Shown here one piece after another: positions 3,001 to 42,000 of a stretch of DNA of 64,000 nt. Under the pieces are notes generated by a model. It did not search any database. It was not told the DNA's origin and was given only the letters and a program-made list of their open reading frames with translations. Each line of letters begins with the position of its first letter. Position 1 is the stretch's first letter. This stretch comes from Owenia fusiformis (lineage: Eukaryota; Annelida; Polychaeta; Sabellida; Oweniidae), in the NCBI GenBank assembly GCA_903813345.2, contig CAIIXF020000001.1:4030001-4094000 (forward strand). Direction: 5' to 3'. A program made the translations under genes and the position numbers.

Positions 3001-6000
3001 CACAATTAGAACTTCAATTGTTTTAGCTAAAGGGTGAAACATATTTCACATTGGATTACATACCTAGTAGAGTAACCTACTTTGTATCGGAGTCAATAGA
3101 AAAGTGGCAGGCTACAAAGACCTTATACAAATATCTACCTAACATAAATTACCTAACAACTTGTTCTTAGTTTCATTTATAGAAGGAAATAAGTGATGTA
3201 TGTGTGACATCACAATACAAAGCTGCCTTGATAATAATGGTATACTTGTACAATGAATTGATTCAATGTATCAAATATCTGTTAGGTATACATGTATTAC
3301 CATTCTGAAAATGAAAATGACAACACGAGACAATGAGATGCGGAATAATTACTCACTTATTTCTATAGTTTCACTTACCTGATATACACAGCCTGTTTGC
3401 CATCAGGATGCACAGTGTCTGCAATGGAGGTCCTTATCTGCAGCATAATGTCAACAAGGGCCCCAGTTTTGGACCAAAGAAGCATGTATTCACCATAACC
3501 ATTAAATGTATACTCATACGCATCAAGGGTACTGTAATGTGGACCACCAAGAATATAACCTAAAAAGCAACAAAATGAACATGTAATTGACACGTGGAAT
3601 TAATATTGCCAGTGACTTACATTGTTCAGTTCTTTTATGACTTTTGCAAAAAATGAAATTCATCTCACCTTGTTCCAAATATTTGTACGCCAAACTATTA
3701 GCAAGTGGCCGCTTTTCAATATAGCGATCACAATATGATGTCATCTTAACATCCTCACAGCAGAGTTTGTATGGGAGGTAGTCATGTTCATGGTGCAGCT
3801 GTGCATCTATGTTTGGAGAGTACCTCATGACAAGCCCCAGATCAGAGTAATCAACCCCCAGATGGTAGTTTCCCACTAATGTACTAGAGGACTCGTAGCA
3901 ACATCGGACACTAGCACCTGGACAATAGACACCATTATTATATTACCACCTTTCATAAATGCCACATTTCAAGTTGAATTTGAATGCTGCAATCATTATA
4001 TAGCATGAACCTTGAAATTATCAAAGTGTTACCACAATCTCCTATGTTGTCTAAATTGTTATGATTATCCTTAGTGTTACATTAATAGTATGTACAGTAC
4101 ACTGATGTAAAGCTATACCTCATCTCTGAAGTCTCAACATTTAATTGCCCAAAGTGTTACCATTGTCTGAAGTGTTACCATTATCTAAAGTGTTGTCAAC
4201 CAGTGTCTGTAGTGATACCAATATCAATATCATCTTGTCTACAGTGTTACCATTATCTAAAGTGTTGTCAACCAGTATCTGAAGTGATACCAATGTCAAG
4301 ATCATCTTGTCTACAGTATTACCATTATCTTAAGAGTGAATAATTACCATTGCCTAAAGCAACTAATTTGTTGTAGCAGTAAAAGCCACTTGTAGTTGGT
4401 AACTCTTCTCTTAGGAAGTTTCTGTCAAGGTCTGCTAGCTCTGTGCTTGGTGGACAGACATTGTTAACACCTTCTGCCCAATCACTTGCACTACCCTCAT
4501 TCTAGAATAGAAATGTTACATGGATAACAGAAATTGAGGGATTGCAAGGTATGTTATGTTAATAATTGTTTAAAACAAATAAGTTTGAATTGTTTGAATC
4601 TAAAACAATTTGTTCATGAAAGGTATATATCTGGTCTAACCGATGCAACAATGCAACAATTTTTGGATTAATAACATAATTTCTCACAAAAAATCATTTC
4701 TCACATTTAACCAATCATTGCAGCGCTTCCTTGGGTTAATAAAGCTATCATCATTGAAATCCAATCTATAGCCTGCTATGCCTTTAACATTAAGACCCTG
4801 GAGGTTTTTCTCTGATACTCTATATGCATTGAGGCTGTCAGGTGTGGCGGCCCATTCGCCAGAGTTCTCATCCTCAACCACAAAGAGTGTATCATCAGAT
4901 CTACAGAGGAAATATCCGATTTTCGCTGGGTAGCCATTGTAGCGGAACAGGTTTTCTGAGAAGCTGGAATTTTAAGGCAATGGTTAAGTAAATGATTGTT
5001 GAATTTAAAGTGAATCTTTTGAGAAAACCTCCTTTCCACAAAATCTAAGTTTTTCATTTCCAACCAAAGTAATGAAGCAATGAAATTCTATACCATGAAA
5101 TAAATCTACTTCATGTATATTCTGTCTTTTGACCCATCACAGGGGACCATGTTCAGGGTCAATAAAAGCAGAAAAGTTTAAATTTTTAACTTTCATTTTA
5201 AAGATCTCTCTGAAAAGTTTATTATTCCTAAATGAAACACATTTTTTAGGGCAAATGTTCTTACTTGTAGCCAGTAGGCTGCCAGGTCATCCCCTCATCT
5301 TCATAGATAAAGAAAGTGAATGATGATATTGAGTTTGTCACGATTATGGCTTGGAATGTATTTCGCTGAAATATACAGTATACATGTAGTACTATGCATT
5401 TTTTAAAGCATGGCTTGAGAAAATGGCAAGCTATGGACACATACATCCTTCTTGAAATGACAAAAATCTTCTCTGACACTAATTAGACCACATGCGTTCA
5501 TACTTAGAATACCATTAGTGTGAACCATTAGTTATTCCTAATAAAGTCACAATTCATCTACTTCTATAAATTGATTTGTTCAATAAGAAATGTTGACCAT
5601 TGTGTTAATGGACAATCAAAGAAGTGACGACAAAAAATATTTGTGGAGTTACACACCTCCGTGGAGCTAGCAGGATAAGCTGGAGCCATGTTATCCCATG
5701 TGGCTTTCAGTATAAACTCAGGCTGGTAGTCAAACACACCTAAGACACTGAGCATAAGATACTGAACTTGAGACACAATGTCTGTGTGTGTCTTGTCATA
5801 GACTTGATACCACACCTACAACATGTGAACAGTGTATAAATATTGGCTATAATATGAAGGGATATATTGTATATTTAAGTTTATCCTGAGGGATGATATG
5901 ATATGTTCCCAAGGGATCTATGTGAACCCCCACATTATACAAACAAATAAAAAATATCTTGAGTGAGTAGTTACTGCAGGCATTGTACATTGAGTAGATG

Positions 6001-9000: not shown

Positions 9001-12000
9001 TATTTCATAAAGCCTCAAACAGGCTTGTGATTTACTCAATAAGATAAAAGATAAATTCAAGATTTTTATAAAGATTTATCTAAATTTACCTGTAGAATTT
9101 TCCAGGTCCACAACCAGAGCTACAATCTGTCAGACTGATTGCTGACCACTCACTCCATCCACCATTTGCTGGAGTAGAGTTTAAATTTCGTTTTCAGAAC
9201 TTGGTGAAATAAACAAAATACTAACAGTATGTTGTCCTTAAGTGACTCATAGCGTCCTTTTCAGTATTCTTGAGCAAAATAAAGACTTCATTTTCACCAC
9301 ATCAGGTCTACACATAATGATGTATAAAAATTGTTACTTTTGAAGTTTGGATTATATACACTGTATCAGTGGTAATTTTTCCTAATCATTTAATTGCCTT
9401 AATTGCCAGGTTCGGAAAATTAAATGTCGGAAATATTATCTTCATAATGTTAACCAATGGGAAGTTTTTTGTCATTAGGAAAATTAAAATTAGGAAAAAA
9501 TAATAAACTTGACCATTCGTCAAATTAACCACTCAGATTTAATTCCACTTATACAGTATACATGGAAAGACAGTTTTCCAAAAAGACAACAGAAACAACT
9601 TATAACTATATGAACTTCAAGACAAATATGTGGACAAACAGGATCTGAACTTATGAGCAATTCCTGAGAGGATATATAATAATCCTCCTTTCTTTTGTAA
9701 CTTACTATGTTCACAGGCAGGTCCAGAGAATGTGTCTCTGCAATCGCACGTGAAGCTGTTAACGCCCTCTATACACTCTCCTTTATTGTTGCAAGAATCT
9801 TCTTTACAATCGGGAATATCTGCAAAAAAATCGTATTAAAACAGTATTGACATAACACGAGGGTTTCTCATACAAAGGTTGTGAAGTTCACAGAATATAT
9901 GTGAGTAATATAATCAGAAGTCTACTTTTTAGAAAAAAGTTCTCTAAAACAAAAAAAAAATTAGTACTGTGGGTACTGGGCTCACATGGTGACAGAAAAA
10001 AACGGATATAATTTTTTGTTGCAAAATTATTTCAAGCAGTCTGTTTCTCAGTCAATTAAAATGGCTGAAAAAAAAAACGGATATAATTTTTTGCCAATAA
10101 TTTGTAACAAAATTATTTCATACAACTACTCTTTACAGTGACATGGCTTTTTGCAATGCAAGACACCTGAAATTATTTGTAAAGCTAGGAAATGGGCCAA
10201 AATTGAATGGCAACCATTTTGAAATCAGGCAAGCTTTTGAACCAGGAGTCATAGGGGAGTTTTTTGTATTGATGTTGAACAAAAATAACTTGAAACTGGA
10301 ATCCTATCGACAGAGGTTTTAAGCAAATGGTCCAAAAGAGGATTTCGCGAGACAGATGGACAAATCAATGTTAACTAAAATGGCTGAAAATAAAAAAAAT
10401 GGATATAATAGTTTGCCGATTTTTTGTAACAAAATTATTTCATACAACTACCTTTTACAGTGACATGGCTTTTTACAAGGCAGGACAGCTGAAATTATTT
10501 GTAAAGCTAGGAAATGGGCAAAAAGTGAATTTCGCGAAACAAGAATAGCAACCATTTTGAAAGTAGGCGAGCTTTTGAACCAAGAGTCATAGGAGAGTTT
10601 TTTGTATTGATGTTGAACAAAATTAACTTAAAATGGGAATCTTATCGACAGAGGGTTTAAGGTAAATGGTCCAAAAGTGGATTTTGCGAGACAGATGGAC
10701 AAATCAATGTTAACTAAAATGGCTGAAAATAAATAAATGGATATAATTTTTCGCTGATTTTTCGTAACAAAATTATTTCATACATCTACTCTTTACATTG
10801 ACATGGATTTTTATCAAAAGTGAATTTCGGAAGACAAAAATGGCGGCCATTTTGAAAATAGGCGAGCTTTTGAACCAGGAGTCATAAGGGAGTTTTCTGA
10901 ATTGATGTCGAACAGAAATAACTTAAAACAGGAATCCTATCGACAGAGGTTTTAAAACGTGCCACTGTTATTGACAGAAAGTGGATTTCGCGAGTCAAAA
11001 AGACAAATCAATGTTAACTAAAATGGCTGAAAATAAAAAAATGGATACAATTTTTCGCTGATTTTTTGTAACAAAATTATTTCATATATCTAATCTTTAC
11101 ATAGACATGGATTTTTACAATGTAGGACACCTGAAATTATTTGTAAAGCTAGGAAATGGGCCAAAAGTGAATTCCGCGAGACAAAAGTGACGGCCATTTT
11201 GAAAATAGGCGAGCTTTTGAACCAGGGGTCATAGGGGGGTTTTCTGTATTGATGTTGAACAGAAATAACTTAACACAGGAATCCTATCGACAGAGGTTAG
11301 CTAGGAAATGGGCTAAAAGTGAATTTCGCGAGACAAAAGTGAAGGCCATTTTGAAAATAGGTGAGCTTTTGAACCAGGAGTCATAGGGGAGTTTTCTGTA
11401 TTGATGTTGAACAGAAATATCTTAAAACAGGAATCCTATCGACAGAGGTTTTAAAACGTGCCACTATTGTTGACGGACGGACAGACAGACGGACAAGTGA
11501 GTGATTGCAAAAGCTCACCATGTGAGCTAAAAACAGCTTTTGATTCCATTTGAAATAATATTTTGACGTTCATAACGTAGATCAAACTTGGCATCATGGC
11601 ACTTTATATAAAATGTGTCTGTACCTGTGCAATTAAAGCCATCTCCTTGGAAGCCATCTTTGCAGTAACATGTAAAACTACCATCAGTATCTTTGCACTC
11701 TGCATGCTCACTACAGGGTAGGTCAGATTCCATGCACTCATTTATATCTAAATAAATGAAGTGTGCCAATCAGTAGCAGAATACATTTACATGGTGGATG
11801 GGAATCAACAGCAAAAGTTAGGCATAAAAAACAACATAAGCAAAGTTTTGGCACTTGTGCGTACATGTCTGGTGACTATAAAAGCAAAAATAGCAATAAA
11901 AAGATAATTTCAGGTGAGCCTTGTTGGTTCACACATAGGCTTCAAAATATTTTTTAGTGATAATAGCAAATATTATCTGCTAGCATTTAGGTTTGCACTG

Positions 12001-15000
12001 TGCATTGTTTTATTTGAAATACGATAAATGAATCCTGAATCTATGCATTTTCATGACAAGAACTTTATGAACTAGCTTACTACTGCAAACTTGGTAACCA
12101 TCGTCAACATGTTCAGAGTAGCCCTTGTTGCATATACACTGGTGTGTGCCAGCAAGGTCTAGGCAGTGGGAGTTAGGTATAGTAAGACAAAGGGTGTCAT
12201 CTATAGCACATACATCAATGTCTGAAACATACAATAAACATATTAATACACAAGTACATGTACATTAGCACATACATCAATATCTGAAATATAGAAAAGA
12301 CATAAATATTTTCATTATTATTTAATAACAATTCAACTACAGTTCAAGTAAACCACTTTCAACACTAATTTTTAATTAGTTTCAATTTATTGGTTAATTG
12401 CGGTTGACCCAATAAATCAAACACATACGTAATTAAACATCACAAATCAATACATTTGTAATGTACATGTTTACTGAGACTAACATAAAATAATATTTCA
12501 TGTTAGTCTCAGATGTTTATAACTGACCTACGCAGGTGAATCCATCTCCAGCAAATCCTGTGAGACACGTGCATTGAAAGCCTGCACCAGCGAGACTGTC
12601 TATGCTGTAAGGAAGGTCTGTACATGTGGCGTGTATGTCACAGTTGTGAACACCACTGTCACACTCATTCACAGAATCTGAAACCCATTAGTAATTCGTA
12701 AATAATCAGCCAGTTGTTTGAGAAAAATTCTTTAAAAGTTTTTAAAGTCTGCTTTGTTAACAAAAATGGTTGGTGAAACAGATTATGTCAGTGTATGTGT
12801 AGCATTTATTGCAAATTTTAAAGTTGTTATAGTTACATTCTTACCTCCACAATCTAATATGAATCTATAGAATTGTATATTGTTAATCATGTTGTCCTCT
12901 GTCTTGTTGTTTGCAGTTATATGTACACCGAGGTATGGGTGTTGCCAACAGTACTGGTAGACAGACTTTGTAAGAGGAATAGAGAGTCCAAACCCACTCA
13001 AGTCAATGGTCACTGTGCTTTTCATACCTATTTCAGCCTAAAAGAAATGTTCAAATAGGTAAAACGACTGTTTTTATTTTATTCAACAAAAATGTGTTTA
13101 TGTTGGTTGTACATCGTTTCAGATCACTATGATGATAGATCAAACTTGGTAACAAATTTGCATCATCCCAATAATTTCAAAAATCTCACTGCATAATTGA
13201 AGAAATCAAACTGAAAGGATAGTTAATCTACTATCTAACCCAAAGCTAAACATTATTTGCCAGGATAATCTCTTACCTGTAAAACCTTGAGTTGCTCTGA
13301 ACTCATTTCCCCAAATGGTAGAATGAGATCATCTCCCCCAAATATGGGATCATTAGACAACACAAACATCATATCAAAATTGGTATCTAGTCCTGTTTTC
13401 TGAGGAAACATTGCATTCCCAGTGGTTGTGACAAGTATATCTATGGTATATGAGAGTTCCTGACCAGGCATATAAGTTCCAGCTTGTAAATTGTCTATGG
13501 TGAACTTCTGCAATTTGATGTCTATGGAATCATCTGTAATTCAGAGGATATCCTGTTATTCATGAGGGATATCAAGTTGTCACTGTGTAATCCTTACTAA
13601 AGCAGCCGAATGACAGCCATTCATCATTTCATGTGTTATTGTATACAAAAGTTGAGATTCCCACAAAACAAGTGCACACACTTGTAATAATAAATGTTTA
13701 AATCAGTATTCAAATTTTCTTGAATATTCATTTGAATCCTGGATTAGAAGGATGTACATATTTTCAAAGTACTCGATCAGAAATGTATTTTCCTAACTCA
13801 CCATTACACTGATCAGGGCGCATGGACACTCCAGTAACATAGGTATTAATATCATTGAAGTACTCACCATTACACTGATCAGGGCGCATGGAAACTCCGG
13901 TAACATAGGTATTAATATCATTGAAGTACATGTACTCACCATTACACTGATCAGGGCGCATGGACACTCCGGTAACATAGGTATTAATATCATTGAAGTA
14001 CTCACCATTACACTGATCAGGGCGCATGGACACTCCAGTAACATAGGTATTAATATCATTGAAGTACATGTACTCACCATTACACTGATCAGGGCGCATG
14101 GACACTCCGGTAACATAGGTATTAATATCATTGAAGTACTCACCATTACACTGATCAGGGCGCATGGACACTCCAGTAACATAGGTATTAATATCATTGA
14201 AGTACTCACCATTACACTGATCAGGGCGCATGGAAACTCCGGTAACATAGGTATTAATATCATTGAAGTACTCACCATTACACTGATCAGGGCGCATGGA
14301 CACTCCAGTAACATAGGTATTAATATCATTGAAGTACATGTACTCACCATTACACTGATCAGGGCGCATGGACACTCCAGTTACATAGGTATTAATATCA
14401 TTGAAGCACTCACCATTACACTGATCAGGGCGCATGGACACTCCAGTAACATAGGTATTAATATCATTGAAGTACATGTACTCACCATTACACTGATCAG
14501 GGCGCATGGACACTCCAGTAACATAGGTATTAATATCATTAAAGTACTCACCATTACACTGATCAGGGCGCATGGACACTCCAGTAACATAGGTATTAAT
14601 ATCATTGAAGTACTCACCATTACACTGATCAGGGCGCATGGACACTCCAGTAACATAGGTATTAATATCATTGAAGTACTCACCATTACACTGATCAGGG
14701 CGCATGGACATTCCAGTAACATAGGTATTAATATCATTGAAGTACTCACCATTACACTGATCAGGGCGCATGGACACTCCAGTAACGTAGGTATTAATAT
14801 CATTGAAGTACTCACCATTACACTGATCAGGGCGCATGGACACTCCAGTAACGTAGGTATTAATATCATTGAAGTACTCACCATTACACTGATCAGGGCG
14901 CATGGACACTCCAGTTACATATGTATTAATATCATTGAAGTTATCTTCATTTGTCTCATCAACCTGTAAAAGTATATCTACCACTGCTGCCACCTTTATT

Positions 15001-18000
15001 TGACCAGGGTAGTTACACAAGTAGAGATGTTCTAATTGTGTGATGACAAAGCCAGAGTTAGTTTCTGGGGCTGAAATAAAATAAACATATACACCTACAG
15101 TACTGGGAAAAGTTATAGAATAACTCCCATATCCACTTATTATATTATTTTGAAGTTAGACAAGGCGTTTCCATGATAAAGGCATTTCCTTGAGCAGATT
15201 TCTACTTCATGTAAAATGTTACTTTATAACAATTTTATTTCTGTTGTAACAGGTTTATACCTGAAAGATCTATGTCCCTTGTGGCTCTTGTTTTCTCATT
15301 GATCACATCCATGTGTACTGCAGTATCGAAGAAAGCACCCTGTTGGATGCCACCAGCTTCCAGAATGAATAGGAAGTCAAACATCATTGGTTGATCATTC
15401 GACTGAACTCCCCATCCACCATCTAGACCTGAAACATTTTGTCGAATTGTTATGATTCAGCTTTGTCTCTGTAATTTTTAAAGAAGCATTTTTGCTTCAT
15501 CAAAAGTCAATTTAGAAAAGCATGCCATCTTCCAATGAATTTAATGCATTGAGATAACATGTACATTAAATAAAAAATTGGGGACCTCCCAGCAAGCCTA
15601 AAGGCAGTGGTTATTAAATATAATATGCCTATCCAAAATATGCAATTTTTTCAGATGTTATGTACTCAATGCATGATGTACAACATACCTGATACCTTGG
15701 CCCTGACTGCAAAGTTATATGGATTGAATCCAAACACAAGATCTCCTGACACCAGAGAAAAGGGTTTGTCAGGACTTCCCAATAAATCAGTGCTGTCTAA
15801 AAAACAATGCCTTAATCAATACTGTATTAAAACTGTCACTTTCATTGTCACATCCATTGATGTATCTTGTATGTGTTTGTCACCAAAAGAGTTTAGTTTA
15901 TAAGTAGAGTTTATAAGTACAGGAGTTACACTATCCATACTGTAGGTTACCAGTAGTGAGATCTCCCTCAATTACTCCATATTACAAGTATAAATATTAT
16001 TCCATGACTTTACCATCTTCACAGTTGACTTCCACGCTAACACTGTAGACATTATTGTCGAACACTGCTTCCACTACATTATTGACATAACTACTGTGAC
16101 CCAGGCGCACTTCAAACACTAGCAAAGCATAACTAACAAGACTGTTGTGGTCTTCTAAGATAGGATCTATTGATGCCTCACATGCTGTTGTGATGTCTAT
16201 CTCACCAGACACACTGTAAAATGGCATATTACAATCATATATTGCAACGATACCACATTTCTTTGATAGAGTTCATAGGGCATTGTGGAATGGCTTTAAA
16301 GATGTTGACAACTCAATCTTTTTTTGGCGGGATCATAATATAGACTTACTTGAAAGTTGTTGCAGACCTAGCTGGTATGACATCAACATTAAATGGTGTC
16401 CGTCCTTTTGTGAAAAACCATTGCTTGGGTGACACATCATGATGCAATTTATCATCACTATTTTCATTAGTGACATACACCTAGAAAAATTGACATGATG
16501 TCAGGGTTTGTTCTTTGACCTATTATAACTAATTTGCTCACTGACTATTGATCTGCTTGTTTTTGTGTCTTCTTCTGAATCTTATATTGTTTCTTGCTCA
16601 ACAGGAGGGGTCATTTAACTGTCAAATTTAGATTAATTTTTATCAATAAGGAAAGAGGAACTAAGGTGTCATTGTGATGTGTTTCCAATTAGAGTTGAAG
16701 CTATTTTATTTTTTTCAAGAATTCTTCATACAACTTAAATGAGTTGAAGACATTATATTTTTTCAAGAATTCTTCATTAAACTTAAATGTGGACAAAATG
16801 TGTGGTATTTTAACAAGTGCCATGCATTTCAAAAGTTTGTATATGGTTTGTAAAAGCTTTCAAACCTTGATAGTTAGCATTAAACTTCACTACAATTTGC
16901 ACACTACACCTTGATATCAAAAGGCTGATAGAATTCATCTGCTATGAGGTCCATTTCTAGTAGATTGATAAGGGTGAACTCAAGGTCCAATAATGCAGGT
17001 GCTTTGTGGAAAGGATTCAGAGGATACACAGCTTCATTTGTCATATCAAATACATCTGCAATGCAATGTTATGGTGTAAAGAGATTTAGTAAGTAATTTG
17101 ATTTGTACAGGTAGGCAACTGATTTAAGGGTTGTGTAAGTGACATTTAGAGTTAGAGATGTACAAGTTGTTTAAGTGATAAACATGTGTAAAGTAAGATA
17201 TAATGTACATCCTTTTTTAACCAAAGATTACTATACTTGTACTAGTTCATATGTTTTACCATAATGGTATGCTTGACTAGTCATAACCAATGGGACATTG
17301 CCAAGATTAGCTAGTTGGTCCATTTTGATTTAGACACACAAATTGAGAAAGTCAATGTAATGTTTAGTAACAGATGTCAAAGTTGAGTATGGAATCTTTT
17401 AATCCATGAACTAAAAGGAGAAAATAGATGAATTCGTAAAGGAACCTACAGCTGTATCTATGTTAGCATACTTACCATGTAAGCATAGAAGATCAACAGG
17501 TAGTGGATAAACATTGTTATATTCTGAGGTTTCCTCTATCCACTTCTCACTGTCTACAACTGCCAAGAGGTACACCCTGCCACAGAGTCCAACATCCAGC
17601 ATGTATGGGATGTACAACAGCTCAAATGTACTGTCCAGTATCAAAGAACTTGAACCCGTGAATACACCATCAGTGTAGACTCTTTGTAACAAACCCTTAT
17701 AGTCCATTGCATAGTCTTCATCATCTAGAACCCTATCTAATGACACATAAAACTGAAACTTGAATAGTTGTTCATCTTCTTTGCCCAGGGACATTCCCAC
17801 TGGAACGTTGACAGAGACCTGGAGGTTAAATGAATAGTGATGGCCCAGGTGGATGTCCTGCAGGGATGTTTGGTGTGGGGATGTATGGTGCAGTGATGTT
17901 ATACTGAACATGTCCACACGGATATCAGGGGCACTAGAGCTGCAGCGTAGCATGCTAGATATGTCCAACACATAAAAGTTGTTATTGGGAAACATGTCCT

Positions 18001-21000
18001 TCGTATCTATGGCAACTCCAGGGTTAAGCATAAGGATTAAATATGGCAGAGTGCATGCCCCTAGAGGCACATTTACAACCATTTCTCCATCAATCAAGAG
18101 GTCCTCTTCAATATATCCACTAAGAGCATCTTTAATGTAGTCGTCTGTTTCAACAATAGCTACCTCCGAGTCAGTCTTATAGCTTAGATATTTATCCTCA
18201 GACAGGTAAAGATTCAGTTGAATATTGGCTCTGTTGTCTATAGTTGCGATAATTGGTTCACCATATTGATTAATATGTGCACTGATATGTACTTGAATGT
18301 CAACATCACTATAAAGGAAAGGTACAAGTGGCTGCAGGGTGAACCCTGTCAACTGAAATGTGTCACCATCGCATGGTATAAATATGGGAACACTCTGTAC
18401 ATTCTTCACCAAATTTGGATCAATCACAGTCAATGACTTCAAATTCTCTAACTTGGCAATAATATTCACTTTTCCACAATACTTTTTATATTGTTCATGT
18501 TCAAAGACATTTATCATCATGTTATCTGCACCTATGTTTAGTACTACAGTATCCAACATCTCATCCAAGATACCTCGTCTTAAGATGCTACTCTGTGAGT
18601 CTGTGTATTCGTAGTAGAGCTTGGTGTCATCAATACTGAGGTGGGAGTCTAGACTCAGATAGAAGTACAGTCCAATACTCAAGTCTTTACGGTCTACTAC
18701 AGATGCTGCTGGGATTTCACCTGAATACAAAAACAGAACAGCCCTGAGGTAGGAGTCTATATTCAGACATAAGAACACTCCAAAACTAAAGTCTTATATA
18801 TGCTGTAGGATCGAGAAGGTGGTTATGTTGTGTTTTAATTCACCATTGTTATTTATCTTTGTTGAAGATACATGTATGCATTGACATGATTGAATGAAGT
18901 GTGAATTTTGTTTAATAGATTTAGAGCTGGTCTGATTCTAAAAGCACATCTATATGTCCATAACTTTGCAACAGTAAATGACTCATTTTGTATATGTGGT
19001 GCTAAACAGCATACAACACATCACTTTTTTTTAAACTGCCCTCTGCTGCAACAAGAAAGATGCACTCTCCAAGCAGGACTAAAAACCTTAGGATTTCTCA
19101 ACAGTTTCCAAAACTTAAACTCCAATGAAAACCTAATCTATTGTATTTCCATTATTTGAAGTTTGATATGTTTTGTATATTGCCAACAATGTTGAAAAAC
19201 ATTTGGGTGGCAATCAAATATAACAGTAGAAATGTAGTTAAAATGTCTTCTAAAATATCTATTTGAAATACTCTGTGTATGACAGTTACAAAACTCTAGG
19301 CAACACTAACTAGTAAAGGGACAACACCCCAACTCAGCTACATGTGAGTGAATGCTATTATATGGAATACAAAAACAGTATGAAACAATCACACCATGAA
19401 AAGCTAAAAAACTGGTTTAAACAAAGGAAGCTCAAGTAGAAAGTATACAAAAGAAATGAAAACATTGTAATTAAATATTTGAAACTGGTGTAAAGTAATG
19501 AAGGGACCTGTTAAAATGACATGGATGGGGATTGGTCAATATGAATAGAAGAAATATAAACAATGTGAAAATGGCCATGTTACAATTGTATTTTTATATA
19601 TTATATTATTATTATTCAAATTGTATATGGAATAAATGAGAAATGAAAAAAAGTCTGTTCCACTATTCACCATACTCTAAAAAGACAATTTTAACATCAT
19701 CAACAATTTTAATTTCATCTAACATGTATGTAAAAAGAACAAGTATGACAGATCACAGCAAATGGGTATACATGCACATTTGCAAGAACACATCTAGCTG
19801 TTTATTTCATTGTCAAACTAACCTCCACCAAATTTGTGAACAGACATGTCAAGTTCATAAGCAAACATTTCTAATTTTTCAATCTTTTCTTTGTAGTTCT
19901 CCTCAAGCTTGAACCCACTGAGGGACAGATCAACCTGTTGCTCCTGGCAGTGAAACATGGACTTGTCCAGTGGGTATTGAACAATGTCATTTCCGGTGAA
20001 AAGTGACAGCTCAGGGGTGTTAGGTTTCAACCTCCAGAACATGGTTGGATTAGACCAGTCTGCCATGGCATCTTGACACATTGACATAGTTGGAATCTGT
20101 AGTACACCTGTACAAAAATACACCATACACTGATTAACTGGTCTGGTGGTTTATCGTTCAGAATATACTTCCCTCCATTGTAATAAATTCTCTGAACTTT
20201 CTTATATTATATATTATATCATATTATATATAGCTTTAAAATGTACCAAATGTAAGTGATTGTTTACCTGCTAGCATTGAACTTTTCACTTTGGCTCTTG
20301 GTGCTATCATTCCCGGGTACTCATACACTTCACTGTCTTCATAAACATTTGTCTTGACATCCTCATCTTCATCCAATATATCATCTAAGGAGAAAAACTG
20401 CTCCAACTGCAAATATAGAATGAATGGAAGGTCTAATACACCAAGCAACAGCCCTAGATACTTAGTGCTATTATACATAGAACTCTCAGGATTTCATTTA
20501 TTTAGAAATGACAGGTTAAATTATCAAAATATTATAATTACAAATGAAACAACTACATGTATACAGAGCCAGTGGCTCAATATTACAAAACATGTACCTT
20601 GTAAAGCCAAGAATCTGCAGAGATTGTTGAGTATCCGAGATTCTGTACTTCAGCCGTAAATTGGACTTCATTCTCAGACAGTGGCCACCAGGATTCTGGC
20701 CATTGTACATTCTGAATGTCCACTAACGTAAGCTGGTCATCTTCAATAACATTAAATCATGCAAATATTAATTTAGCAGAATAACCTAGATGATCACTGA
20801 TAATATAACTTAATGAATCATTTGAAGTGGAATACAGGATATATTCTGCTTAAGAAATTCTGTATTTGAACGAGACGAAAACATTTTTATCGTGTGATCC
20901 TCTGTATTGCTACTGAGAATGTCCCCTCCGTACCAATATTTTCTGTATTGCGACGGAGATGATCAATGGGGAAAAATCTCAGTAGCAATACAGATTGGTA

Positions 21001-30000: not shown

Positions 30001-33000
30001 GATGAAGAATCTTTCCAATATCTATATTCTAAATAACAATATTGAATTTTAAAAGAAATACATACTTAATAAACGCCTTATTCTATTTCACATTATTAAT
30101 GTACCTTGTATTAGAAGGCGTGTGAGATTCCAGAGTGAATCTTATATTCTCAAATGCAGCTGGTACATTACAATTCTCTTTAGTACAAGTGATCTCTAGA
30201 TCTATACCGAACTCAGATGTATACCCCTCAACCAGTGTACCACCAAAGCTCTCAAAATCCATGTTAGAAATACTGAAGAAATCTGGAAAAGTATATACAC
30301 CATGAAACGGAAAAGCTTTAAGGCAATGATAAAAATTATTCAAGTTGGAAGCTGAAGACTACTTTTTTGAGTGAGGATGTGATGGGGACATTTTTGCATA
30401 GTCACATTGTTTAGAAGGTTGTAGGATGTTCTAGTTTCTGTGTTGTATACCTTCATCACATATGATGGTTGTCTTGGCAACCTTAACATCATTGGTTCTG
30501 TCTCTCTGTAGTAAGTCAACATCCTCATCCACTACAGCAATCATATAAATAGGACCACAGTAGCTCATGTCTGATGGCACACCAAGTACAAAATCATCAG
30601 GTAGTGGCGATAATTTGGCATAGCCTTGGATCACTGCAAAAGTGAGAAGAGTGTTATTAAGTATTTTGAAACACACTTATTATTTTGTAGAGTAAGAGCT
30701 TACACTATAGACTGCAAATATCGGAAAGGCGGAAATTTCTGAGATTGCCTTTTGTTTATATCTGAATAAGTGAGCTTTACAACACAATAATTTTCTATCC
30801 AAAAAACCAGTGCTAATTCATACACTGTGAAAACATAGATGTCATACTTATTTGGATTTCAAATTAATATTAGATTTGTATTAATCTTTATTCTAGTTCT
30901 AGTCATTTCATTTTTTACTTACTCAGGGTGCCATGGGCAAATGCATTGTACTATCAAATATGTAACATCATGGACTATTTCTTGAAATTTGTAAGATCCA
31001 GTACATAAAATACAAGCTATTACCTTGATTACTATACATATTCTGCAAGAGAACATCTCCTTTATCTAAAATGCTATCTTTAGACATGTAAAGCCTTGTT
31101 ACAAAGTCCCATGGGTGCAAGGCTGGTGCCAGATCCCCCACTTTAGCTACTACTGACAGACGAAGCTTTGGCTCCCCAGGTACTCTGATAGAACTTGGCG
31201 CTGTTAGTGCTTGAAGCTCAACATCGCCATAATCTAACATGAAAAAAACATATAGTACATGGAAACATTATGCAAATAAGGTACAGACTGAATATAAGTG
31301 TTTTATAAAACATAGAAATCCAAATTGGCAGGGGACATTTTTGGGAATAAAAGCTGAATGAACAAAACTTTATAAATACTGAAATTTTTTTAATATAGTC
31401 AAACAAGATATCACCATGTGAGCCAAAAACATTAAACACAAACAGGTAAATTGGTTCTAATACTGTACGTACATTTAACATTTCCTCAAAGCCCTAAAAT
31501 GATGTACTTACATATTGGCTGCTTGCATCTTCTCCATTGGCCTGGGAAGATTGTTTCCGTAAAACTCACTGCACCACCTACAAAGTCAAATAACAGATCC
31601 AAAAACACAATATTACCTTTATCTTAGACTGAAGCTAGGCCTAAACAGTCATTTTAGGCACAGTTTCTTGTTTTTATATTTCCTGAGTTTTAGGTCCTTC
31701 ATGAATATAAACATGTAATATCTTAGGCTGCTTCAATTCTGGAGATGATAATTCTATTCATCAAGGCAAAGATGAGCACAAAAGGTAACAAGAAATTATA
31801 CCTGGCATAATCTCCACTCTCAATTTTTCAATCGCCTCACATTTCTCAGGAATGAAGAAATCTGGGTACAAAGTGGCAGTAACTCCTTCTAATCTGACCT
31901 TTTCAAATGGTCTCATAGGTTGGTAGTATTCTGGTGGATAGGTGAAGTCAGTCAGGAGGGTTAAGATCTGAGACTCAAACTCATCTAGTTCAGTATTTAT
32001 CCATGTTGCATATACCTTAAAATAGGAAATTAAATATTCATCCAAGTTGCATATACCTTAAAATAGGAATTAAATATTCATCCAAGTTGCATATACCTTA
32101 AAATAGGAAATTAAATATTCATCCAAGTTGCATATACCTTAAAATAGGAAATTAAATATTCATCCAAGTTGCATATACCTTGAAATAGGAAATAAAATAT
32201 TCATCCAAGTTGCATATACCTTGAAATAGGAAATAAAATATTTATCCGAGTTGCGTATACCTTGAAATAGGAAATAAAATATTCATCCAAGTTGCATATA
32301 CCTTAAAATAGGAAATAAAATATTCATCCAAGTTGTGTATACTTTGAAATAGGAAATAAAATATTCTTCCAAGTTGCATATACCTTGAAATAGGAAATAA
32401 AATATTTATCCCAGTTGCGTATACCTTTAAATAGATAATAAAATACTAACTTAAGTTGCAAACACATGTAGCAGGTTATAAAATATAAAACATTTATCCA
32501 GGATACATGCACCAAAAAGTGGATGACATTTTGAAGAAATCTTCAGTGTGCAAAACTGTTTCTAAAACCATCAGTACACAAACGAGCATTTGAGTTAAAG
32601 GCCCTCATAGTTTAACTGACAGAGAGATGGTATCAATAAACCAAAGCAAAATTTGCATTTGGACAATTTATCATGGTATTAGTACATTGTATTAGTATAT
32701 GTTTTTTGAGAATCAGTGACTGTTTTATTGAAATATTAACATTAACTTACATTAAAGATGTAGTTTGGTGCACTAGGGACTGCTTTTGGTAGAGTTTTCC
32801 TCCTCATGTTCTGTACTGTGATATCAAATTGAAACTGAGAGGCATCAACTGCAAACAATGGCTGGATGGGCCTGAACACCAATTCACTCAGTTTGAATAT
32901 TTCTGGAAAATATATATGGTATTCGGAAGAAACCTGTCGGATCAAATGCCTCTCTGTAATCAAAATGGTGGACATATTGAATATCTGTTTCTACTGACAA

Positions 33001-36000
33001 AAAAACTTGGGTTTTTGCAAGGTTTTGAAAGCCCGTTTTGAAACGAAAATGACGTCGTTTGTATTATGAACGCTGGTTGACATGTATTATAATAAATTTG
33101 AAGTTATGATATACCAAATTAAAGATATTTAAATTCCCTATTCACTGGTATATAATATGACATGTTTTCCTCATGTTTATTTTTGAAATATACGAATGTC
33201 CCATTTTTTGGACCACCCTGTACATAAGTTTTACTATACTAGAAAAATATTTTTGACAAAACGATAGCCCTGAACTTTCAGTTATTTCATCAGTATTTCT
33301 AAAACAAAGACCTTAATGATGACGAACATACTGATTCAATAGCTGATGAACCACCACTTACATGTAAGTAATTCATACTGGTAAAATATGGTACTCAGTC
33401 TAATGGGATGACATTACAACATAGCAATTGAATAATGAACAATCATTATACATAACTGGAAATAAATACTCTAATGGATTCATATGTTTCAATTATTTCC
33501 ACTTTGTTATCTACTTTGGTGAGTAAATAATCTGCAATACCACTTAGTGATACATTTATTAATGATTTAGACTACATTAAGAGAGTTACATTAACTTTAT
33601 TAATATATTTTGTTTATTGTATTAGAACATTATAGTTCACTAAAAGTAGCTTCAAAATGTGTTATATAATTGTCAGTCCTGGGGTCCCCATACCCCATAG
33701 AAGTAATGATAATGTTTCATAGATTTGTCTTTAGGTTGATAGATAATTGAATAACGCATCACTTGTAAGAAAGGGAATAATTATACAGGTGTGTAGTAGA
33801 TTAAAAGTGTCTATGTAAAAAAAGCATCCATTATTTCTAATTGCATTGATCACCCCTCATATTTGTTTTCAGTATATTTTAAACAACATGTATTTGAAAT
33901 AGCATTTCCATTATGGTTAGCAAATCTATTCATTTCTTAAGAAGTCAGCAAAAGTGAATAACAATGCCAGATTTCTGAAGAAATCAAGTAAACGTAATAT
34001 CATTGGACTTCTCCCATGATCTTGGAACACTGTTGGCAAATCAACTCAAATATTCATTCAGTCAATAATGTTATGGATTAATTGAGACAGTTCTTCTAAA
34101 GAGAGTATAATATTATTGAGGTGTATGAGATGAGCCTTTAAGATTAAAATGAGAACATCCTTTAAGAAGAGAGAACTAACAAGCAGTAGCAGGTAGTTTG
34201 AGGAGTCTTTGATCTGAATAAATCCATATACATTAATAATGATTATTTCTACTAATGTATTGAAACAATAATCAAGTGTTTAATGATATCCATTACTTCA
34301 GATCGAAGCAGCATAATGTACATCTATAGATCTTTTATGTATTAAAACCTGGCACTCATTAGTGAAGATCATCTCATTTAGAACTATGGCAGGGAATCAA
34401 AGCAATGAATTGGTGTTTTATCCACCAAATAGTGAAGAGAACAATATATATGACACTGACAAGACAAACATTACAATCTCTCATATGATTAAAACACAAG
34501 CAGAGGATGACAATTGTCACGACTCAAGTGAAAGCAAAGCAGATGAAAAAGTTACTAAACTAAGAGATACTTTTTTACAGGTTATTGAAGCAAATGACAT
34601 GAATGGCTTCACTATGTGTACTGATGAATACCATGAACTGTTGGAACTAGAGATAATAACAGGAATATATGATCCTCAGCTAATATCTAATGATACAAAC
34701 CTTCTGAGGCATGCAGTCACACATACATTTGATGAGGCTGCATGCATTCTATTAGAGCTAAGTGACAATGGAGCTGTCATGAAAGATAAAAAACATGGAG
34801 TGGGATTACTACATGATACTGTTATAAAGAACATGCCTCGTATTGTGGAGGCCATCTCTGAAAAACTGACCAAAGAGGAATTCCATGAATTAATGGCAAT
34901 GCGGGCAACTGGTACATTCTTTAAGGAGCACTTTAAAGGATTGGAGCTCTCATTAGAAATAGCATGTTGGGCAGGTAATTATAAAATGGTGAAGAGTCTG
35001 CTCCAAATCAACCCCATGGGGGTATACCTGGAGAATTCCAAGGGTCATAACTTGCTTCACACTCTTATACTTCTATGTGATGAAGATAACCACAAAGTAA
35101 CAGATTTTGTCAAGGATGTATTTATGATGATTTATAATGCAGAAAGTGGCAAGATGGCATTAGAGTATCTCCTAGATATGAAAGATAACAATGAAATGAC
35201 ACCAATGTTGCTAGCGATGAAAAGGGGAGAATTCCCATTTGTCATGCTTGTTCTGAATACTGTATTAAAGGAGGTGAATAGTGAGTATGGGCCAACAAGG
35301 TACGTTAACTATGACATCACAGATATTGAGAAGTGCCCAGGTGCTGTGAGCAAAGGGCCAACTGGGATCATGTATGTCGCAACATCCGCTGACTCTCATC
35401 GGCTTCCAAATATGCTCTCTCTGCAGCCCTGGAAGAAGATTCTACAACTTCGCTGGAACATGTATAAATGGTATCTTTTGTTCATGATGCTGTTTCACTT
35501 TGCTGTTCTAGCATACTTTGCTGTTAATGTTACAATATCCCCTTCACGTGATGAACTCATACTTATGAATAATGCCACATTTGATTGGATTAACGGCAGT
35601 TCAACAGGAGTTGGATTTCTTGAACAAAGGGGCTATGTTGGTTTGCAGGGACTGATGCAATTTGGTGCAGAGTGCTGCTTCATCCTTTATGGTCTTACAG
35701 GATTCATCAACCAGTTTGCGATCATGATGAGAATGGTGGTGAGATTGTTCAGAGCTAGGCTGACAATGAGTGAAATGATTCAACGTATGTTCAACCCTGC
35801 GACAGGGTCAGGCTTATATGGAGTGACCAACCTGGTTTTCACATTCAATCTTGTCCTTTCCTATTCATTTAAAATCCTGAATCTCTCTCAATATGTTTCT
35901 CGTTTATCAGCTGCAGGTTCTATCATATGTGGTTTCATATATTTGACCTTCTACTATCGCACCATTCCCTACACATCATTCTTTACTGTCACTATCAATA

Positions 36001-39000
36001 AAATGATCTTCGGTGACGTTCTGCGATTCCTCGTCATAGCATTTGGATACCTTATTGGATTCAGCACTGCCTTCTACATCCTATTTAAAGACACAGAAGG
36101 GGGAGCACCCCCTGATATGGACAGCTTTTCCAACGCTCTCATTTCAACATATAAACTTATGTTGGGAATCGCAGACTTGAAAACAATGAAGGTTGCCAAT
36201 GGTTACTACATCGTTACTTTCTATATTCTTTATACAATAATTATGACAGTGATGCTGTTTAACATGTTAATAGGCATCATGGCGAACACAATAAATGATG
36301 TGTCGGTCCATAAACAATGCTTCAGCAAATTTCAACGTTTATCAACACTGATGATCACAGAATTCGGACAATTCTGGTCTGGTGGTTTTATTAAGAAATC
36401 TTTAGAAAAAGGAGATGTTAGTGTAAAATCAGTGATGTATGCTGGGAGAAAACAGAAGAGGCTTTTTATAGAATGTTTGGAAATTGATCACGAAGCAAGG
36501 TTTTCTTGGATATCAGACAATAAACAATATGAACATTTCACTTAAACAATCGAACTAAGGTAGGTAATTGTCGGACACTCAGTATGTGCAGTCATGTGTC
36601 AGACAAATACCTACATGGACGACATTGCCTCCCTGTACTCTAATATGCATCAGAACACATGTTTCTGAATGGTGATTAAAAGTACTTGTCATTGTCATTT
36701 TCAAACATATTTCATATATATGTGAATTGCTGTCAGAATAAATCCTAAAATATGAGTAAATGTAAGTATTTTGAAAAGATGAATACCCTCTGGCGAGGCC
36801 TACCATTACCCTAAATCTGATAAGTTATTGGAAACCAAATGGAGAAAGATTCCAATGAACAGCCACTGTCCTTTTAACTTCAATTCCAGTCAGTCAAACA
36901 GTGGTTGTAATGGTACCATGGTATGAAAAAAGTCATAACTCCTTGGTATTGACATAAAAATAGTATTACATTCCTATTGATATAAAATATAAAAGCTGAT
37001 CTACATACCTGCAGGACAGTTTGTTGAGACACGTTCAGCAATGTAGTTATTGCTCTCATTTATCTCTGCCACTGAGTTATCTACAAAGTTCAATAATGCA
37101 ATTTATTCAAACTTTAATTTAACAAAACTGACATCAAGTAAAATTGAGAAAATTTACATACATGCTATGGAAAAGTGGACTGTTTAGTGGTAACATGATT
37201 TCATAATTGCATTATTTATGGAAAATAGTGGCCATTTTGAAATGAGTAGCCATATTGGAAATTCCTTCTCAAGCTGAGGTCTCACATCTGTATAACCATC
37301 ACATGTCAGACTATGAAATATGAACCAAATGTGGCGACTGGTATTTGAATTATTGTCCAAACAGAGCCAAAGGAGCCTATGTATTATATATATCTCACCC
37401 TACCTTTATCTATAAGGGCAATAATGTAGACATCACCACAAAGCTGTGGGTAGTTAGTGGACAAATCATCTGGGAGGTAGAGAGGGATACCACCAAGGTT
37501 GATGGTATGGACTCCAACTGGCAAGAAACGCTTCATTTCTCCCAAGCCAGACCCAAGAGTAAAACCATCATATGGAACCTAAATGTAAAGTTAATTTTGT
37601 AGTACATTTTATTGTTATACAGTAAAACTTGTGTTACTCAAATAGCCTTGAGACTAAAGAAAACAATCCAGAGGTATGGCCTTACAGGATGTTTACAGTT
37701 TTTGCCATTCAGCTATATTTAAACATGGATTTAACCTTGTGTTATATTGAATCCATTATGAAATCTGAGCACATTGCTGTTACAGGGTGTTCTGAAAGTA
37801 ATAATGGGACTGACGATAAATATTCTTACTTCCATGTCAATGTCACCCTGTAGTTGATCATCCTCAGAGAGATAGAGCGCAGTGTTGTAGACTAAAGACC
37901 TGCCTTCTCCAACTATTGCAGTTTCAACAAGTAGACTAAACATGTTGCCAACATCACTGGAGAGTGAGCCACTGCCAACATCTAGTAGAACTGGCTTTAG
38001 ATCAACAGTATCTGTAACAAACATAAAGTAATCACTTTAAAATTGGTCAGTAATATAACATATAACTGATGAGTGTATAATATACTGTAGACAAAAAAAC
38101 ATGTAAAAAAATGTATAGTGACCCATATGTCGGAGAGACTGACATGTTTCAAAGTCAATAAAAGATTATACTGTTGTACTGATTAGGCATTCAGAGATAA
38201 TCCAGTTCATTAATAGCCTTACCTCCAGAGCAGCTTAGCAGAGCAGTGATATTTGTGCAGATGGCATCATTGGAGCCATTGGTATCATTTATAGGGGCCA
38301 GCACCTCATCAGTCATCATATACTTTATACACACATACACCTCACTTAACTCACACATTGCATCACTGATTACAATTGGGATTTCTCCTGATAGAGGATA
38401 ACTAGTATCGCTCATGAGGATGTCTTCTAAAGCTAAAATAAACGGAGGTTTTCAAGTAAAAGTATCATGTTACAATGACATCTTGGTAGAATATCTCATT
38501 CATTTAATTAACAATTTAGAATATTTAACATATCCCACGCATCACATTTTAACATATTCTGCCTCTTATATATGCTTTCAATATCAATATGCAAATGAAA
38601 TTTTGTATATTTCTATGAAGCTTCAGTTCAATATTCCTTGAGTACAGCAGTAAGTGATGGATGAAATCATGAAATGATACAATATTTCAACAGTTATATA
38701 TTCATGGAAAAGTAATCTTGATTTTCATCCATAAATAACAATTTAAAGTGATATCATATTTAAAATAGAGAATAGTTCCTTACTTTCTTCAGAGTAGCCA
38801 TCTAGAACAATTCTCCCAAGTATAAGAGGAACTCCATTGTTAAACCCAGCACTTGGTGTGATATGTGGAGTATCACTAAGGAAGGTTTGGAGCTGAAGGA
38901 ACCTTCCAGTCATCGGTCTCCCAGTGAATTCCAGAACTGTTGCCAAGTGGAGTGATGTGTTGACATCTTTATACAGGTATGCTAGGGACCCTGAGGTGGC

Positions 39001-42000
39001 CTCTAAACTTGAAAGTCCAATGTCTGGAATCATGTACAATCACTATAATTTACTCATCCTCCTTATAATAGCAAGTGTACACAAACTGCAATATAAGAGA
39101 CTTTTTGGAAATGTGATTAAAAACAGTACATATTCTCATAAACAATTTCCACTCTGTAATTAATGAAACTTCCTTTCAACACTTACACCAACCACAAAAC
39201 AAACTGATTCATGTGTTGAACCTAGAGCAAAACAATTATAAGATGGTGTCTAGTATGTTGTTACTTACCTCCAGAGCAAGACATGCGAACCTGTCCAGCA
39301 TTGAGGTCATAGCATGTTATATTATCTTTAATCAAATCATCCACCCATGCTGGATAAACACCCTCATCTCTCACAACATCCAAGCAGATAAATGTGCTAC
39401 CTAAAAGTGATAAACAGAAATTCAAAATATTAAATCATGGGACAAAATACAATTAATTTGACAGAAAACCATTTTAAAATTTTATGTAACTTCAAAGTTG
39501 AAATAAGGGATCCCATTTGACTATATCGTGTTACTACAGTACTTACTTATACATTGTTCTTGTGTTATGTATAGAGGGGTTGTGACATTTCTGTATCTTC
39601 TCACAGAGTAACCCTCCAGCTTTTCATTCCTGGGATCATGGTTCTCCCACTGTTCCTTGTCTAAGCGAATCATCTGAAGACAAACAAGAAATATACATAA
39701 ATGTTGCAAGACTAACAATAACAGGAAGGGATCATTCAAGATAAGCTTATAAATGAAATCCCTAAAAACAACATACAGATGGTGACTTTCAACAGTAAAG
39801 GGAAGAATACAAGTCTATCGAAATCAAGGTATCACCAATAAACTGCCCAAAACAACAGATGTTATCTGACTTGGTGGTGTATTGAGAGAAGTTTTTACCC
39901 AAAACCTGAAGGAGCTGCCTAGTTTTAATTATAACAACTTTGCCACTTTAACAAAGGCTAGTAAAATCAAGATTATGCTTTTTGGAGATTGTAAACTTTC
40001 AGATGAATGTAACAAAGAAATTACCAATTTATCAGCAAATCTTATTGACAAAATCATCTGATTATTTATAAAAAATTCATGATAATAAGGACAAAGTTCA
40101 ACCCATCTTTCATCAATCATTATCATTCATTCCTTACATTTCCCATAAGGACCATGTGACACTTACAAAAGACAGGACACATGTTTTGAGAACCGTTATA
40201 AATATATGTTAATTTTGCAAATTTTATATAAGGGAGGCCAATAATGTAATGTTTTACCTAGGCCTTCCTAGTATGTTAACAAGTGTAAAATCTTATTGCA
40301 AATAAATAAAACTTAACCTTAAAAAAAAAGAAAAAAAAAAAGAGACAAGGTAAAATATTTAAAAATCTTTGTATACAGGGTGTCCATAAAGCTTCATTAC
40401 ACAGACTTTGTACTGTAATTGTAAAGAGACTTTATGGACAACCTGCATATGTAAGAAGAATACCTGAAGTACAGAATCAGGGTCATCCAGTCCCCCACCT
40501 GTCATTAAGTACAACCTAAAGTAGAACAGGTTCTCATATGCTTCCAAAGGTTCCTGGATAGACACACCAATGTTTTGAACATCCACATCAAATACGATGA
40601 CATTGTTAGTGTCTTCATTTATGCTGGATCCATTTATCTTACCAGTTACTTCAAATCTTGATAAAGCCAGTCCTAGAAAGAAAAGAAAATTTATGGGGGA
40701 GTAGCTCCCTTGGTGTCCCAAAAACAGAATATTTTTCATTTTGCTTTAATAATAAAAATCATTATTCTATGGAGTCTAAAAACTAGCATGACCAAATTTC
40801 AGAAAAATTGGTAAATGTTTAGTTCAACCCAATGCCAAGTCAATATTGCACTCACACAACTCAGGGAATTCTAGCTTGGGGAAAAGTTACCTATTGTATG
40901 TCTCCATTACATACAAAACATATTTGTGTATGCAGAAACATGTACATTTGCTGTCCAATTGAGCACATATATATACAAGCATTACTGATACAACATCCAT
41001 GCAAGAAAATAGAACATTTCAACAGAAGATGAATATAATAATAACCTGAAATGTCAGAACACAGGAATTTCACTTGTGTCCAGGCAGACATGTCTTCTGG
41101 ATCATCTAAGCTGGACACAGCACTGTCGGAGTTCAAGTGAATGCCTATATATGGAGATTTTCCACATATTGCGTGATATTCTTCATGGGTGATATCTTCA
41201 CTTTTGAAAATAGATACTCTGTGACTTACTGGAAATATAAAAGGCAGAACTTTTTTTTAAAAAATAAAAATGGCGGCCATTTTGAAAATAGGCGAGCTTT
41301 TGAACCAGGAGTCATAGGGGAGTTTTCTGTATTGATGTTGAACAGAAATAACTTAAATAGAGAATCCTATCGACAGAGGTTTTAAAACGTGCCACTATTG
41401 TTGACGGACGGACGGACGGACGCACAGACCGACAGACAGACAAGTGAGTGATTGCAAAAGCTCACCATGTGAGCTAAAAACTACATGCTAGTACTTGTAT
41501 GTATCGTATACTATACTGGTTAACGTACAGTATCATGTCTTTCTTATATGAAGACATTTTAAGTGCAACTGAATTAAACTAGCAGAAACATAAAGAACTT
41601 ACAAGGCATATGGTAAATACTAAATATCCTAAATAAGAATTCAAAAAATGGTTGCCTTAAAATTTACCCAGTATGTCAAAATATGACACATTATAGATTT
41701 TCATAGCAAGAGACATCCGTGTTAATTTCAAATCAACCTATCAAGTGAGTTTAAGTCGTATATTAAAAAGTTGTGATATTTTGATGACAGGAATGTAATT
41801 CTTTGTCTGGAAATAAACAATGGTCTGATCTGAACTGATTTATTGTAAACCTAAATTACCACCCAAGTGAACACCTTGTACACAATACTTAAGTCAACTA
41901 AATGACTGTTTTACTTACAAGTATGTATGCCTGAGCCTGAACTCAAATCCACATTTGCTCCCTGTGCAATCCACACTTTACTACTGCTGTTCCAAGCTTT

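Follow-up and report, generated by a model that had tools for sequence, protein, structure and literature searches.

The minisatellite of IFI6 (6-16, G1P3), described by Turri et al. in 1995, reportedly provides multiple splice donor sites. In IFI6 variants two downstream repeat units serve as donors and three mRNA species are found, according to an excerpted account (PMC4526556, citing Turri et al. 1995). For the amphioxus globin genes BflGb6 and BflGb9, tandem duplications of exon-intron boundaries that resemble minisatellites are described as "mirages", with Adh3 cited as a further case, in excerpts of PMC3087553. According to these excerpts, mirages occur at either exon border, their units measure 10-72 and 150-160 bp, two haplotypes of the BflGb6 mirage carry 6 and 3 units, and the Adh3 mirage shows somatic instability (PMC3087553). 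The boundary copy is left out of homogenisation, and the copied splice signals could serve as cryptic sites; regular splicing appears not to be disturbed, based on Adh3 data and globin RT-PCR (same excerpts of PMC3087553). A further related process is the origin of new introns by tandem duplication across an intron-exon boundary, which likewise copies splice signals.

Here we describe a tandem array of splice donors located in a window of 64,000 nucleotides, which is the whole stretch of DNA analyzed in this study. The array shares with the mirages a unit that spans a splice junction; in the excerpted description of mirages either border is copied, many units keep AG/GT, and boundary copies escape homogenisation. 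It differs from the described mirages by its 17 copies and its in-frame open unit. As in IFI6 a minisatellite is located at an exon end, and the donor function of the IFI6 repeats is matched here by a donor consensus in 17/17 repeats; use of more than one donor is reported in the account of IFI6, whereas in our array it may occur. The comparison with new introns differs in that a single duplication suffices there, while an array of donors is present here. Among the matches listed in the open-access literature, none presented a 17-copy in-frame case in its title or the start of its abstract. Junction-spanning repeat arrays are of a kind already known, and this array is a well-formed mirage-like member of it with an unusual in-frame unit.

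Structure of the donor array

All 17 tandem copies carry a donor, G|GTGAGT, on the minus strand, and thereby confirm the original prediction of 17 in-frame tandem donors at one exon end. Copies 2-17 (13802..14881, minus strand) consist of 16 units, 12 of 66 bp and 4 of 72 bp, with an open frame and a GTGAGT donor after each unit, and 16/16 steps are divisible by three. The units end with ...TGT AAT G|GTGAGT, and the 72-bp form has six additional bases directly after the donor. With the junction placed from the sequence, a unit is composed of 58-60 bp of exon end and 6-8 bp of intron start, which supports the proposed capture of an exon end plus its donor by a minisatellite.

The exon starts at 15070 (minus strand) and is preceded by TTTATTTCAG. 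The last exon bases for the 17 GGTGAGT donors are located at 14882, 14816 ... 13868, 13802, and the resulting candidate exons of 189, 255, 321 ... 1,269 bp share one end phase (phase 1). The predicted range of 189 to 1,269 bp with an open frame was recovered on the minus strand, the coding frame across all copies comprising 422 aa. Read-through past the last donor (GTGAGT, followed by TAGG; 13796..13801, minus strand) leads to a TGA 12 codons later. TRF placed the array at 13796-14941 with 17.0 copies, and a 17-base core yielded 17 matches at ≤3 mismatches compared to 1.18 expected. The two bases following GTGAGT are AC in 15 donors, GC in one, and TA in the last.

The open frame alone proves little, because two other frames of the consensus unit, one sense and one antisense, are open as well (the third sense frame contains ten stops in two units). 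Since one founding unit of 66 bp and one class of 6-bp indels would suffice, the frame kept in all copies does not represent 17 independent facts, and the chance that a founding unit is a multiple of three is one in three. The absence of stops is uninformative as well, as the probability of zero stops among eight random changes is 0.75. An invariant block of 31 bp around the donor was not significant (P 0.06).

Tandem arrays are easily mis-sized in assembly. An expansion of a shorter array during assembly would have a parallel in one draft-genome mirage that was apparently aberrantly assembled, as stated in the excerpts of PMC3087553. However, the 16 added units comprise nine distinct types in mosaic order and have a mean pairwise difference of 2.1% (with the 6-bp insert set aside), so that a plain one-unit assembly stutter is unlikely; we regard assembly expansion in general as highly improbable.

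Gene context and the probable native donor

We infer that a single gene comprises the minus-strand exons between ~1 and 40 kb. The array is preceded by an upstream exon of 168 bp that ends in phase 1 (15261..15428, minus strand; assigned by its open frame and AG/GT borders). The putative native exon of 189 bp (14882..15070, minus strand) contains repeat copy 1, ends with ...TGT AAT G, and is followed by the donor GTGAGT of copy 1 at 14876..14881 (minus strand). The downstream exon of 257 bp (13277..13533, minus strand) begins the next module. The intron would span 1,348 bp if the first donor was used and 268 bp (13534..13801, minus strand) if the last donor was used.

At 7/9 sibling module ends a phase-1 G|GT donor is located 4 or 7 nt past the Cys codon, and in copy 1 this distance is 4 nt. 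The remaining 2/9 ends (near 18368 and 17942) sit within one long exon. These nine module ends were chosen by eye from the list of open reading frames, their membership in the gene being presumed; 12 peptides had been looked up, of which the array's own and two near 22852 and 30557, which by our reading contain the first Cys of a module instead of the terminal one, were excluded. Near 42411, another module end reads TGC AGT G|GTCAGT. Since the donor position of copy 1 matches those of seven sibling module ends, the array has most likely expanded on the intronic side of a junction that was already there, with copy 1 providing the native donor. Two variants of copy 1 were distinctive, ACA being absent from the 16 others and GTA being common to copy 9 only. 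At bases 28-35 past the last donor the sequence agrees with GAGTACTT from the unit junction (E 0.18). This may be a remnant of the founding duplication and is no evidence by itself.

The host gene product looks extracellular because of sub-threshold matches to CARDB, VWD, and AMOP together with EGF-like stretches recognized by eye. The label "CARDB-like" of the original prediction turned out to be weak: the joined exons had no match in Pfam, and two of four scanned sibling ORFs reached 17.1 and 15.9 bits, below the CARDB (PF07705) cut-off of 22.7 bits, while the other two were without a match. The 62-aa translation of the native exon had no relative in collections of non-eukaryote genomes and viral contigs, where none of the 110 and 6 stretches matching the pattern could be confirmed. 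An exact match to 34 bases of the unit was likewise absent from the viral contigs. Scans for Rfam families and tRNAs were empty.

A Pfam search with the array ORF returned six matches, with DUF5339 (38.4 bits versus a cut-off of 27.7) and Colicin_D (25.4 bits versus 25) above the whole-protein cut-offs. Membership in these families was rejected, as in all six matches no single stretch passes and we regard the scores as sums over many near-identical repeats. AlphaFold2, run on the array ORF without an alignment, predicted a beta-rich structure with a mean pLDDT of 80.5 (53 to 80 across five models), which we read as a solenoid; we judged this prediction to be uninformative on the use of several donors. 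The AlphaFold2 model of a sibling had a pLDDT of 32 and was useless.

Other repeat arrays in the window

Two other arrays in the window also span a splice junction, in line with a mirage-type origin of the donor array. The first is an acceptor-side array of 11 copies with a 41-bp unit (one step of 40) at 31994..32445 (minus strand), in which the true exon starts at 32015. In each unit a pyrimidine-rich stretch is followed by AAG, or by AAA in one copy, and then by an exon-like start. With the phase set by the upstream exon (phase 0), the frames entered at all 10 upstream acceptor copies (nine AAG and one AAA) run into a stop codon 8 to 60 codons later; presumably these copies are mostly ignored by splicing or give rise to non-productive mRNA. 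The second is a donor-side array at 4151..4347 (minus strand), where four sites resembling the exon donor AATG|GTAA (first intron base at 4347) lie downstream of it, at 4322, 4250, 4178, and 4160. These sites are located 25, 97, 169, and 187 bases beyond the exon donor. None of the distances is divisible by three; the steps between the four sites are. The frame would be kept on use in 1/3 junction-spanning arrays, and since the two others would lose it, being in frame is by itself weak evidence. One frame-keeping array of three could be what chance gives, and three are too few to judge.

Two further repeats on the plus strand lie near a probable junction without including it. A 36-bp repeat at 59471-59636 ends ~13 bp before an exon, and in three of its units GCTGACA resembles the branch-point consensus. 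A 21-bp repeat at 60875-61474 starts 43 bp after a probable exon end and contains 27 exact GTAAGT sites, which amount to a field of U1-like decoys in the intron. Closeness of an array to a junction is not rare here, because introns and exons measure only a few hundred bases.

Donor strength and donor choice

For 15 donors the predicted energy of pairing with the U1 end was −10.6 kcal/mol; one donor reached −10.3 and the last donor −9.2. A preference of the splicing machinery based on exon length points to copy 1, whose exon of 189 bp resembles the neighboring exons of 168 and 257 bp. In contrast, a preference based on intron length points to copy 17 and argues against use of the first donor, as the 268-bp intron is closer than the 1,348-bp intron to the neighboring introns of 190 and 239 bp. 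Because these two rules give opposite answers, the locus is a useful test. The donors used most are probably that of copy 1 or the first few, as judged from sequence features, and some in-frame extension by later donors is plausible. In RNA folding, four units folded better than shuffled sequences (z −2.8), and the donors in the three-unit consensus fold were 45% unpaired compared to 33% overall, so they are not specially buried. Each unit also holds an AG after a pyrimidine-rich stretch, the use of which as acceptor would leave an intron of only ~59 nt.

Several donors could be used at substantial levels and produce a regulated ladder of isoforms that differ in length. Such regulation would agree with the identical 11-nt sequence and predicted U1 energy of 15/17 donors, to which the other two come close, with the mostly synonymous nature of the variants among the copies (6/8), and with IFI6, for which three mRNA species and two downstream repeat units acting as donors are reported in the excerpted account (PMC4526556). 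However, mirages are reported not to interfere with regular splicing (PMC3087553), and the array sequence and its predicted donor strengths gave no sign of regulation. Moreover, decoy splice sites arranged in a ladder appear to be tolerated, since all 10 upstream acceptors in the 11-copy acceptor array lead to a stop. We thus consider a regulated ladder of isoforms quite unlikely.

Variation among the copies

The 17 copies are separated by eight variant sites, and six of the eight changes are synonymous. This exceeds the expected synonymous fraction of 0.20-0.26, which depends on the transition weight (binomial P 0.0013-0.0052), and third codon positions were affected in 6/8 cases (P 0.02). 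The excess persisted for copies 2-17 alone (5/7 synonymous, P 0.005-0.015) and after dropping the variants also present in copy 1 (4/6 synonymous, P 0.018-0.043). In comparison, 2/7 changes were synonymous among the seven codons of exon origin in the 11 acceptor copies, true exon included (0.19 expected), and the difference between both arrays was not significant (Fisher one-sided P 0.10). The synonymous excess is a hint that the array is translated, and not a proof, because there are few variants, homogenisation affects the inner copies, and the array could have received synonymous alleles from the true exon.

If the whole array was an exon, with the last donor used in most transcripts, selection would maintain 16 extra repeats of 22-24 residues between two modules. 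The throughout open frame and the synonymous variants fit this scenario, as do the neighbor-like size of the 268-bp leftover intron and an open exon of 1.2 kb at 17476-18720, which seems to be part of the same gene and makes a long exon possible. Yet the last donor is slightly weaker in its predicted U1 binding (−9.2 versus −10.6 kcal/mol) and 16 similar donors precede it, every repeat would bring one Cys in addition to the pair flanking each module end (in fragments cut by hand at those Cys), and the two sister arrays would break the frame. On balance a whole-array exon appears unlikely. A mirage with a selected, copy-number-variable coding segment is doubtful; here most transcripts would contain many copies, and splice choice together with unequal crossing-over would set the length of the spacer between two extracellular modules.

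Origin of the array

Our preferred interpretation is that the array is a mirage-type minisatellite, in which splicing mostly occurs at the native donor or at one of the first few and the inner copies leave with the intron, and we consider this probable on the features described above. A duplication across the exon-intron junction would have created the founding unit, and slippage or unequal exchange would have expanded the array. The spliceosome would mostly pick the native donor or one of the first few, so that the further copies would be removed with the intron. Since the founding unit would have been a multiple of three, transcripts spliced at a later donor would stay in frame and carry inserts of 22 or 24 residues between two modules. 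Such in-frame inserts would make the array tolerable and may bring weak selection against amino-acid changes. The synonymous excess speaks against copies 2-17 being always intronic, unless coding alleles of copy 1 spread into the array. As amphioxus mirages vary between haplotypes, the length of the array likely varies between individuals, too.

Other features of the window

The window has a G+C content of 35%. A long single ORF at 34317-36545 (plus strand) encodes a TRPV-like channel with TRPV3 as best matches in PDB and lies on the strand opposite to the flanking exons of the host gene. An ORF for an ASC (DEG/ENaC-type) channel is located at 53715-55151 (plus strand) and is closest in PDB to FMRFamide-gated channels, which are found in molluscs and annelids; a lophotrochozoan source would be a guess from this. 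A locally tandem sequence (AFEPGVIG in translation) is repeated at 10101-11450 and 41110-41385 (plus strand) and is perhaps a dispersed element.

Implications

An array that multiplies a splice junction amounts to a natural experiment on how splice sites are chosen. As the 17 donors have near-equal predicted strength and differ mainly in position, counts of their usage would separate control by exon length from control by intron length. The presence of three arrays across splice junctions within 64 kb suggests that the process known from amphioxus may be widespread in the genome of this animal, and the in-frame array could show how such arrays turn into coding sequence or new introns.
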